A DNA stretch of 64,000 nt from Phycisphaerales bacterium (GTDB taxonomy: Bacteria > Planctomycetota > Phycisphaerae > Phycisphaerales > UBA1924): NCBI GenBank assembly GCA_029260345.1, contig JAJDDK010000001.1, forward strand, positions 62,001-126,000, in the 5' to 3' direction. The notes under the pieces were generated by a model that made no database searches, was not told where the DNA came from, and worked only from the letters and a program-made list of their open reading frames with translations. Made by a program: the position numbers and the translations under genes. Position 1 is the stretch's first letter. Every line of letters begins with the position of its first letter. Positions 5,218 through 48,308 of this stretch are shown in pieces.

Positions 5218-5676
5218 TCAGTCCGTTGACGACGCTCGTTGCATCTTTCCAAACGGAAGCTGTCTCCGGTGCAGCACGACCGTCGTCGCGCACAACGCAA
5301 ACAACAAAACCGCCATCCAGAACAGCAGCGGATTCTGCACGGTTTCACCGTCAATCACGTACTCCGGCACAACGCCGAGCTTCGTGAGGTGCGAGCCAAT
5401 CGCGCCGAGCATCACCATGGCGCCCCACAGTCCGCCCCACACCGCCGTGCGCGGCATGAGCAGCAGCGCCGCCGCCACCAGCTCGCACACCGCCGTGAAA
5501 TAGCGCCCCCACGGCTCAACGCCCAACTTCTCAAACGTCTGCATCGCGTACGGATCGCTGATCAGCTTTGGAATGGCGCCCGGCCACAAGAACAGACCGA
5601 CAGCGATCAACCGAACTGTCCACGACAGCGCGACCTTGGGCGTCATTGATTTCTTAGCGGTGGACGGATCGTTCAT
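5218..5676 (-). CDS. DoxX-family membrane protein
   Basis: A 152-residue protein with four predicted membrane helices. Family features are a glycine/proline-bearing first helix (FLWPGAIPKL) and the third-helix region MLGAIGSHLTKLG. DoxX-like proteins occur with quinone- or thiol-linked redox functions, but the activity of this one cannot be assigned. The start ATG 5676 has an excellent GGAGG seven bases upstream, but that ribosome binding site is the 3' arm of a perfect hairpin (see 5685-5705). It is co-directional with ndk, 70 bp downstream of the ndk stop. Confidence 0.75.
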   Translation of the reverse strand: MNDPSTAKKSMTPKVALSWTVRLIAVGLFLWPGAIPKLISDPYAMQTFEKLGVEPWGRYFTAVCELVAAALLLMPRTAVWGGLWGAMVMLGAIGSHLTKLGVVPEYVIDGETVQNPLLFWMAVLLFALCATTVVLHRRQLPFGKMQRASSTD

Positions 5677-5684
5677 TGCGATGC

Positions 5685-5705
5685 CTCCTCGTACGTGACG
5701 AGGAG
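5685..5705 (-). promoter_or_regulatory. Hairpin sequestering the doxX ribosome binding site
   Basis: Read on the - strand, CTCCTCG (5705-5699) and CGAGGAG (5691-5685) form a perfect 7-bp stem around a 7-base loop. The 3' arm plus the next G is the Shine-Dalgarno GAGGAGG, placed correctly before ATG 5676. In the mRNA this would mask the ribosome binding site. It could equally be a DNA operator, since the two arms form an interrupted palindrome. Confidence 0.5.
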
Positions 5706-5746
5706 ATCAATCGGCGCCGCAATGAAATTATTCCCGCGTCTTCGAT

Positions 5747-6217
5747 TTACTCAGGGTCGCCGCCCGACATGTCATAGACCCACGACTCGATCGCACGATC
5801 CATTTGCTGCACTTCCCCATCCTTGAAGAAGAGCTCCATCTCGCGCGCCGCCGCCTCGGGGCTGTCCGAACCGTGAATCAGATTGAATGAATTCGACACA
5901 CCGAAGTCGCCGCGGATCGTGCCAGGCTCCGCTTTGGATCCGAACGTCGCACCCATCATCTTGCGGCTCATGTCGATCGCGCCCACACCGCGCAGCGCCA
6001 TGACCAGCACGGGCGAACTGGTCATAAAGTTCACCAGCCCGTCATAGAACGGCTTGCCCTTGTGCGCGGAGTAGTGCGTCGCGGCGAGCTGCGACGAGAT
6101 CGTCATCATCTTGCAGCCGACGATCTGCAGCCCCTTGTCCTCAAAACGGGCGATGATTCGCCCCATCAAACCGCGCTGCACGGCATCCGGCTTCAAAATG
6201 ATCAGCGTCGTCTCCAC
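5747..6217 (-). CDS. ndk: Nucleoside diphosphate kinase
   Basis: The enzyme transfers the gamma phosphate from NTPs to NDPs through a phosphohistidine. The protein begins ETTLIILKPDAVQRGLMGRI, the canonical NDK opening, and contains the active-site block NLIHGSDS with the catalytic His. I chose GTG 6217 rather than the frame-opening position at 6346 because GAGGAG lies 8 bases upstream and family homology starts exactly here. The resulting 156 residues match the usual length. The gene is divergent from the M36 peptidase gene across a 280-bp interval. Confidence 0.95.
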   Translation of the reverse strand: METTLIILKPDAVQRGLMGRIIARFEDKGLQIVGCKMMTISSQLAATHYSAHKGKPFYDGLVNFMTSSPVLVMALRGVGAIDMSRKMMGATFGSKAEPGTIRGDFGVSNSFNLIHGSDSPEAAAREMELFFKDGEVQQMDRAIESWVYDMSGGDPE

Positions 6218-6497
6218 CGCACTACTCCTCGAACTGATGTTCGTATTCTGTTTGGAATCCCTACTCGCCGATGCGAGGCCCGGAGCGTACCGTTGGTTGT
6301 TCCGCGCGCCCAACGCCCGCTGCGGCGTCCGAAAACCGCTGACCACGAGGCAATCGCGCCTGGATTTCGGTTTTCTCTTGCCGCCGCACCCGGAAACGGG
6401 TACGCAGAAGTAACAAATTTCGGTCTTTCAGGACCGTTTCAAACCCGCGATCGCAGTGGCGCCGTCCGCCGCTGGTCGTCTGATGGGAGGGTTTCGA

Positions 6498-9400
6498 GTG
6501 ATTCGTACGACGATGATGTGTGGCGCGCTCTTTGTGACGCTTTTCTCCCTCCCGGCCGCGGTTCACGCACAAGCACCGATTGATGGCGTCACCCCTCTTC
6601 ACGAGCCAGACCTCGGACTCGATCCGTTTGATGTGCGGACTGACAACGCCGCGACCCAGGCGCGCATCGAACAGCTTCAGCAAAGCGAAGTGATGAATCG
6701 TCGCGTTGAGGCGAAAATCGCCCTCGAACAACGGCTGCCCGGCGCCAGTGTTGATCTCAATGCCGCCATGGCGACGCCCGAGTTCATTCGCTCGACGACA
6801 TCAATGCTAACCGCGATCCCCGCCGCCCCAATGGACGCGGCTTCGATCGTCAAATCATTCATCGAATCCAACGAATCACTTTTCGGAATTGCGCCGGCAG
6901 CGCTGGATCGCGCCACCATTACGCGCGACGCCACCACCACACACAACGGTGTGCGCACCATGTGGTGGCAACAAGAGATTGATGGCGTGCCGGTGCTGGG
7001 CGCTGACGTGCGCGCCAATGTGCTGCCTGACGGCCGGCTCGCAACCATCGGTAGCCGCATGCTTCCCGACGGCGCCATAAACGCGGCCCGCGCGAAAGCC
7101 ATCAACGTCTCGCGCCTCGACGCGGTTCAGATCGCCGCGACCAACATTGGCGTCGACGTGCCGGCCAGCCTCAACATCCTGCGATCGATCGAGTCGCCCA
7201 CGGCGCCGATCACCTTCGCCCGCACTCAGAATCTCAAACGCGATGTGAAGACGGACTTTGTCTACTTCCCCGTCACATTCAATGACATCCGCCCGGCGCA
7301 TCGTGTGACGCTCGCTGCGACAAATGACACCAACGTCTATGAACTGATTGTTGATGCGACGAATGGCGAAATCCTGCATCGCCAGAATCACACGTGGTAC
7401 GGCGGCGGCACGGACGGCGTCTACCGCGTCTGGACCAGCGACAGCCCCGCACCGATGACGCCCGGCCCCGACACGCCCAACGGAGCCCAGGCCCCCGAAG
7501 TGGCGCGCGAACTACTCACGATTGGATCGCTGAGCGCCATCGGAAGTCCGTCCGGCTGGATCAGCGTCGGCTTGAACGAGACCGTCGGTAACAACGTCGA
7601 CGCTGGCACCGATCTTGACGATGACGAAGAGATTGACCTGCCGCGCCCGCAGGGGTCTCCGTTCCGCGTATTCGATTTTCCGATCAATCTCGCGAGCACG
7701 CCTGACACCTACCGCGAAGCTTCAGTCGTTCAGGGCTTTTACGTCGCCAACGAATATCACGATCAACTTTACGATCTCGGATTCACCGAAACGTTCGGCA
7801 ATTTCCAAGATGACAACTTCGGTCGTGGCGGCGCCGGTGGCGACCCGCTCAACCTGCACGTGCACGATGGGCAGGGTTTCAACAACGCCAACTTCAACAG
7901 CTCCGGTGTCGATGGCGACTTCGCTTTTGTGCAAATGTTCATCTTTGATGGCCCAAGCCCCGATCGTGATGGCAACCTCGATACGCACATTCTCATTCAT
8001 GAACTCACGCACGGCACCAGCATCCGCATTCACGGCGGATTGACCGGTGGCCAGGCGCGCGGCATGGGCGAAGGCTGGAGCGACTTCTTTGGCCTGAGTC
8101 TCACGGCTGAAGACGGCGATGCTCGCGACGGGATATACGCCATGTCCGGTTTCGTGACGCTGGACGGCCTCGGCGTTCCGTTCATTGACAACTACTACTT
8201 CGGTATTCGCCGCTATCCGTACACCACGGACCTCAACCGAAACCCACTGACGTACGGCGACATTGACGCTGACACCTTCGACGTGGATCCGATGATCCCG
8301 CGCAATCCGGTCTTCGGTTCAAGTTCGCTCGGCCAAGTCCATAACGTCGGCGAAGTGTGGTGCACCGCCCTTTGGGAGTGCCGCGCGATTCTGATGGACA
8401 ACCACGGGTTCGCGGGCAACGACCTGATGATGCAACTCGTGGTCGATGGCATGAAGCTCACGACAACCACGTCGCCCAATCTTGTCCAGGCGCGCGATGC
8501 GATCCTGCTGGCCGATCAGATCAACAATGGCGGCGCCAACGTGTGCGACCTCTGGGCTGGCTTCGCCAAGCGCGGCCTCGGCGGCGACGCCTTCAGCGAT
8601 TCCGTTTCCACCACCAACATCATCGAGTCTTTCGACATTCCCATCGGTGTGAACTTCATCATCGACGGCGGCGCCCCCGGCCGCGTGCAGGCCGGTTTGC
8701 CGGAATCGTTCGAAGTTGAAATCACCGAGAACTGCGGCGCCCCCCTCACCCCCGGAACCGCGCGACTTGTCCTCACCATCAACGGTGAACCCGCACAGGA
8801 ATTCCCGCTCGTCCCGACCGAAGGCGCCGCGGGCGTGCTGGTCGCCACCATCCCCGCGCTGATGTGCGGCGATGTCGCGACCTACTACGTCGCCGCCGAC
8901 ACTGGCGATGGCGAATACACCTTCCCCGCTGGTGGCGCGGCGGATCAGATCGACCTGCAAGTCGTCACTGATGTTCAGACACCGTTCGCCGATGACTTCG
9001 AAAGCGATCTTGGCTGGTTCGTCTTCGGCGACGCTGAAGAAGGACAATGGGAACGCGCCATCCCTGCGGGCAACGGCGGCTTTCGCGGCGATCCGATCAC
9101 CGACGCCGACGGCTCCGGTCAGTGCTACGTCACCGACAACAGCGAAAACGGCGATGTCGACGGCGGAACGTCCACCCTGTTCTCACCGACGCTCGACGCC
9201 ACCGGCGAAGGCGACGCAATCCTTTCGTACTACGTGTGGTACGTCAACGACATCGGGACTTTCGTGGATGACACGATGCTCATCGAAGTGTCGAACGACG
9301 ACGGGCAAAACTGGACCACCGTCGAAGAGATTTCCGCACCAACCAACGGTTGGGAACTTCACACATTCCGAATCGCGGATCTCGTCGAGCCAACCAGCAC

Positions 9401-47940: not shown

Positions 47941-48104
47941 ATCCCTCTCCCCCTAGGAGAGGGTGGCCGAGCGAAGCGAGGTCGGGTGAGGGTCGAATAT
48001 GTCCTGTTTTCCGGCGCCTGCGCGAAACCTGAAGGAAGGAGACTTGGCCCTCACCCGGCGGCGCTCCGCTTCGCCGACCTCTCCCAAGGGGAGAGGTGGA
48101 GAGA
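47941..48104 (+). repeat. 164-bp intergenic repeat, copy 1
   Basis: The unit starts ATCCCTCTCCCCC, contains GGCCGAGCGAAGCGAGGTCG and GGGTGAGGGTCGAAT, then GGCCCTCACCCGGCGGCGCT and CTTCGCCGACCTCTCCC, and ends GAGAGGTGGAGAGA. Parts of the 5' half are complementary to the 3' half, so the element can fold. It lies upstream of alaS, between alaS and the FAH gene. Confidence 0.85.
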
Positions 48105-48268
48105 ATCCCTCTCCCCCTGGGAGAGGGTGGCCGAGCGAAGCGAGGTCGGGTGAGGGTCGAATGAGTCCTGTTTTGCGGTGCGTTTGCTGATCCTGAGGGG
48201 AAAAGTCTCGGCCCTCACCCGGCGGCGCTTTGCTTCGCCGACCTCTCCCAGTGGGAGAGGTGGAGAGC
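48105..48268 (+). repeat. 164-bp intergenic repeat, copy 2 (direct tandem), followed by a remnant
   Basis: A directly adjacent second copy of equal length, differing from copy 1 mainly in the central 60 bases and a few scattered positions. A short truncated relative (CCCTCACCCCGGCCCTCTCC...GGGGGGAGAGGG) continues to about 48304, almost touching the FAH gene stop. Such GGGTGAGGG/CTCTCCCC elements are widely dispersed in bacterial genomes. Confidence 0.85.
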
Positions 48269-48308
48269 CCCTCACCCCGGCCCTCTCCCGGGGGGAGAGG
48301 GAGGAGAA

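Follow-up and report, generated by a model that had tools for sequence, protein, structure and literature searches.

The window analyzed here, a 64,000-nucleotide stretch of a Phycisphaerales bacterium genome, carries on its minus strand a doxX-like gene coding for a small membrane protein of 152 aa (5218..5676; Pfam DoxX_2, E 3.7e-10) and, 5' of it on the same strand, the nucleoside diphosphate kinase gene ndk (5747..6217), from which it is separated by a spacer of just 70 nt. The doxX start codon occupies 5674-5676, and a Shine-Dalgarno (SD) element, AGGAGG, lies at 5684..5689 (-), 7 nt 5' of the ATG at 5676. A candidate alternative start at 5646 is without an SD, and the start at 5676 was therefore retained. 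A scan of the ndk-doxX spacer recovered neither a promoter-like site (sigma-70-like, at the threshold of the scan; the promoters of this lineage may differ) nor a terminator-like site. The three neighbors scanned against Pfam are ndk itself, a CtaA-like gene and an M36 peptidase, and there is no regulator among these three. The ndk leader (6217-6235) carries TTCGAGGAG, which is also complementary to the CTCCTCG arm of the spacer hairpin described below, probably only because the SDs of ndk and doxX are alike.

The spacer and the doxX start codon together harbor a hairpin of two nested helices. The inner one is formed by an inverted repeat at 5685-5705 (-), CTCCTCGT-cacgt-ACGAGGAG, with a perfect stem of 8 bp and a 5-nt loop; its 5' arm, CTCCTCGT (5698..5705), corresponds to an anti-Shine-Dalgarno sequence, and pairing with the 3' arm, ACGAGGAG (5685..5692), encloses most of the AGGAGG of doxX. 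Folding of the spacer, along with direct complementarity, delineates an outer helix whose 5' arm is TTCATTGCGGCGCC (5713..5726, minus strand) and whose 3' arm, GGCATCGCAATGAA (5672..5685, minus strand), includes the start codon; the arms are 14 nt each with a complementarity of 86%, and the start codon is paired within them. In the minimum-energy fold the outer and inner helices are joined by an 8-nt bulge, GATTGATC (5705..5712, minus strand). The earlier note had reported a hairpin at this place with the SD in the 3' arm of a perfect 7-bp stem; we confirm it on the minus strand with a perfect stem of 8 rather than 7 bp, and the hairpin is larger than was claimed, the outer helix over the start codon having been absent from that account. 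The 57-nt element is predicted to fold at -27.1 kcal/mol, with a z of -5.5 relative to 200 shuffles, and the 107-nt region around the hairpin gives a z of -1.9. The opposite strands of the element fold nearly alike (-27.1 versus -26.9 kcal/mol), so that folding by itself cannot separate an RNA structure from a DNA symmetry. The centers of the two dyads, computed from the arm coordinates, differ by 4 bp, the inner lying at 5695 and the outer at 5699.

In five longer contexts, extending up to the whole ndk-doxX mRNA, the SD is predicted to be paired at a probability of 0.996 and the AUG at 0.95 or more; on the modeled mRNA spanning 6240-5218 the values are 0.996 and 0.952 respectively, predicting a closed start on the long transcript. 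The model changes little with temperature: the SD is paired at 0.996-0.998 across 4-37 °C, the SD and AUG at 0.996 and 0.997 at 50 °C, and at 0.954 and 0.912 even at 80 °C. We also considered melting of the hairpin by a ribosome halted at the ndk stop and rejected it, as in the model the hairpin stays closed when all nucleotides from 5735, or even from 5726, upstream are blocked. Transcripts starting within the element behave differently in the same model. When the start is moved from 5725 to 5722 the pairing of the AUG falls from 0.99 to about 0.26, and it returns to about 0.6 for starts from 5713 to 5704. The pairing of the SD is 0.97 for a start at 5722, 0.95 at 5707 and 0.82 at 5704, and about 0.72-0.73 for transcripts starting at 5698 or later. 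As SD pairing thus stays high on shorter transcripts, any brake imposed by the hairpin is predicted to be only partly relieved by them.

To place the hairpin in its genomic context we used a sample of 644 kb, comprising the window and 29 stretches of 20 kb, which amounts to about 19% of the 3.4-Mb genome; its 518 genes were predicted by a simple finder based on ORFs and codon scores rather than by a trained program, and 295 of their starts bear an SD of 4 nt or more. The doxX start is the only one of these 295 whose SD is overlapped by a perfect stem 8 bp or longer, where shuffled leaders lead one to expect about 0.17. The predicted cost of opening the region from the SD to the AUG, 20.8 kcal/mol, is likewise the highest of the 295 (median 7.6), and it is matched or exceeded in 4 of 2,360 shuffled upstream sequences, which implies about 0.5 such starts in the sample and, by extrapolation, two or three per genome. 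The SD and AUG are both paired at 0.95 or more in three of the 295 starts including doxX, and at 0.99 in doxX alone; shuffled sequences reach these levels in 23 and 5 of 2,360 cases, and the number of starts at the 0.95 level hence matches chance. Measures less closely fitted to the element rank it lower. A 58-nt window chosen to frame it gives a z of -5.1 and rank 2 of 518, whereas four fixed windows unfitted to it give -3.75 and rank 18 of 518, with equally low values in 9 of 518 shuffles. A gapped inverted-repeat score places it fifth of 518 and is reached by 7 of 2,072 shuffles, which speaks against strong significance, and by folding energy the 105-nt start region ranks only 170th of 518. 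The doxX hairpin is thus exceptional for one gene, is not beyond chance genome-wide and is no proof of selection; extrapolation from the shuffles indicates that a G+C-rich genome easily yields a convincing locked start by chance, a few times per genome.

Of 150 genomes taken from the family, 64 gave a match to DoxX, counting the window's own, and family and order-level loci together provided 73 loci, two of them without a doxX match and one without a usable start, leaving 70 scorable loci with the window's own among them. Starts were picked automatically, and 6 of the 69 relatives have no SD call. A search of contigs contributed only three distant loci, among them L022, which apparently lies on the same contig as L009. 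In none of the 69 relatives does a stem of at least 7 bp cover the SD, and in none are both the SD and the AUG paired at 0.95; the SD alone reaches this value in six. ndk lies near doxX in three relatives, L007 and L040 with short spacers and L031 with a longer one, and the spacers of L007 and L040 contain a strong hairpin, yet one that is clear of the doxX start. The closest Ndk, at 87%, comes from genome G053 (L125), which has a T-run hairpin after ndk and is not among the family doxX matches. No genome of the same genus is among those searched, and the DoxX proteins of the relatives are 29-58% identical to that of the window, which makes them too distant for a test by compensatory changes. 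Searched against DNA, the leader gave no significant match beyond its own genome, the best one having an E of 0.001 across 28 nt, and within the genome the inner stem and the whole leader each occur as a single copy. The hairpin is best read as lineage-specific.

We tentatively favor, as the best explanation of these observations, a constitutive brake in which the hairpin of the ndk-doxX spacer closes the SD and start codon of doxX on read-through mRNA, and regard it as quite possible. An mRNA running in from ndk, or starting 5' of about 5726, would have both elements closed by the hairpin and would be translated weakly into DoxX; better translation would be expected only from a transcript that starts, or is cut, inside the element. 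Co-transcription is itself an inference, plausible since the ndk of the window is not followed by a T-tract hairpin, and so are the reduced translation and the existence of a short transcript that would escape the brake. In favor of the brake, the computed pairing places the SD and AUG in nested helices, the computed stability makes their opening the costliest of the sampled starts, and the genes lie close together on one strand with a spacer free of promoter- or terminator-like sites. Against it, the hairpin is absent from all 69 relatives, including the two that share the order and close spacing of ndk and doxX; it falls within whole-genome chance, and no promoter-like site was seen in the element. 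The model also gives no reason for closing a gene with a strong SD. If the brake works as modeled, it adds one more bacterial gene start hidden on read-through mRNA. We know of little experimental work on translation control in this phylum, and our literature searches found nothing on an ndk-doxX element.

Inhibition by fold-back of a read-through mRNA is known from the transposase genes of IS10 and IS50, and in phage T4 there are genes whose starts are closed on long transcripts. The doxX locus resembles these in that the long transcript would hide the start, and good translation would be limited to a transcript that begins within the repeat; unlike them, it is without a transposon, a second copy of the element or a recognized internal promoter. 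In the ISPpu9 transposase, secondary structure of the 5'-UTR is reported to control expression (PMC8450116), and the likeness to doxX lies in this use of leader structure as a control; two small RNAs, which are also used, are a feature of ISPpu9. A search for passages in PMC4611024 and PMC4166951 turned up nothing decisive for the element. It is conceivable, if quite improbable, that the SD and AUG in their separate nested helices form a start with two locks that is actively opened by a helicase, a small RNA, an internal promoter or a cut; were this true, a separate transcript would be the sole source of DoxX, and the ndk mRNA would yield none.

The main and serious rival to the brake is that the hairpin is a chance quasi-palindrome over the doxX start, perhaps the relic of a template switch during replication, which has no selected function and may nevertheless lower translation. 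We consider this possible, with a somewhat weaker claim than the brake. The shuffled leaders that equal or exceed the opening cost, the expected number of SD-covering stems, the rank of the unfitted windows and the absence of the hairpin from every relative examined all speak for it; the opening cost being the highest among the sampled starts, and the coincidence of the SD, the AUG and the inner stem, speak against it. A different proposal, which we view as unlikely, is that the hairpin serves ndk as a 3'-end or stabilizing stem-loop where relatives have the ndk terminator, the doxX start simply overlapping it. This was examined on 32 ndk loci from the 145 genomes with a match, namely 30 that were fetched, counting that of the window, together with L007 and L040. 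A T-tract hairpin occurs within 100 nt past the stop in 13 of the 32, whereas in two control stretches it was seen just once each among the 32, and the strong spacer hairpins of L007 and L040, in which ndk and doxX are also close, point the same way. By a looser count, hairpins of at least 8 bp follow ndk at 26 of the 32 loci, more than the 12 of 32 found 300 nt further on, but hardly differing from the 25 of 32 that have one inside the gene. The hairpin of the window has a G+C-rich stem but no T tract and so fails as an intrinsic terminator; its 3' arm coincides with the very start of doxX, whereas the hairpins of L007 and L040 sit clear of that start.

The earlier note had taken the hidden SD as a sign of translational control by an RNA thermometer or a ligand- or protein-responsive switch. 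Sequestration of the SD is borne out by prediction (0.996), but the sensing part of the proposal fares poorly, and a regulated element that opens on a signal, be it temperature, a ligand, a protein or a small RNA, appears very unlikely to us. To our knowledge doxX, unlike the hsp17 gene of Synechocystis, is no heat-shock gene. PMC4477652 describes the hsp17 thermometer as one hairpin with the AUG in an outer stem, the SD in an inner stem paired with UCCU, and an asymmetric internal loop between them, all of which the doxX hairpin shares. According to the same source, the outer stem of hsp17 is weak, its loop measures 10 nt and its apparent melting point is 46 °C, and a variant melting at 64 °C is described as having lost activity, whereas in the model neither doxX helix opens up to 80 °C (SD at least 0.95, AUG at least 0.91 paired), making a thermometer unlikely. 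Our search of the literature for Planctomycetes together with RNA thermometers returned no paper. A ligand switch finds no support in Rfam, where no family, thermometers included, matches the hairpin region at the gathering score, and the only two matches at E up to 10 both score well short of their gathering thresholds, lie on the opposite strand and belong to families other than thermometers. The SD, in addition, stays closed in the longer contexts, and a hairpin present in none of the 69 relatives provides no conserved aptamer or binding site for a riboswitch or protein-responsive leader. The alternative of a DNA operator for a dimeric repressor, hairpin-like only through its symmetry, had also been raised, and the dyad at 5685-5705, with 8-bp half-sites and a 5-bp spacer, has the appropriate form. 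It is weakened by the outer dyad being centered 4 bp off the inner one, as expected of a bulged RNA helix, and by the pattern of the inner dyad, allowing up to 3 mismatches, occurring at 39 genomic sites versus 36 in a reversed control, its only exact occurrence being its own site; nor are the three scanned neighbors regulators. Dyads that are not co-centered and the dearth of similar sites favor RNA, and we hold an operator to be highly improbable.

Other hairpins and palindromes were observed in the same genome. In the 644-kb sample, perfect stems 8 bp or longer that enclose a loop of 3-8 nt number 105 in 110 kb of intergenic sequence as against 58 in 534 kb of coding sequence; they overlap 6 of the 518 predicted starts, in two cases as palindromes of the CCTCTCCC type. 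An intergenic region of the window (47943-48301) contains clustered short palindromes of the CCCTCTCCC...GGGAGAGGG type, and a 71-nt piece of this cluster has 65 matches in the genome, so that these palindromes look like a dispersed repeat family. Between the genes of the sample, palindromes of the types CATCCCGAC, CTTGACTG, CCACTGCTC and CATGCCCACG also turn up repeatedly. At L123:6713-6740 a perfect 12-bp hairpin, AAAGCCCATGACGTTGGTCATGGGCTTT, covers the predicted start of the gene 6720-7211 and may represent a terminator or reflect a miscalled start. A second strong SD hairpin of this genome lies at L095:6640-6720 (minus; z -4.7), where GAGCCTCC pairs with the GGAGGCTTTTC side and encloses an inner stem-loop; the gene it precedes (6106-6648) has no Pfam match, and in a longer context its SD and AUG are predicted to be paired at 0.71 and 0.48.
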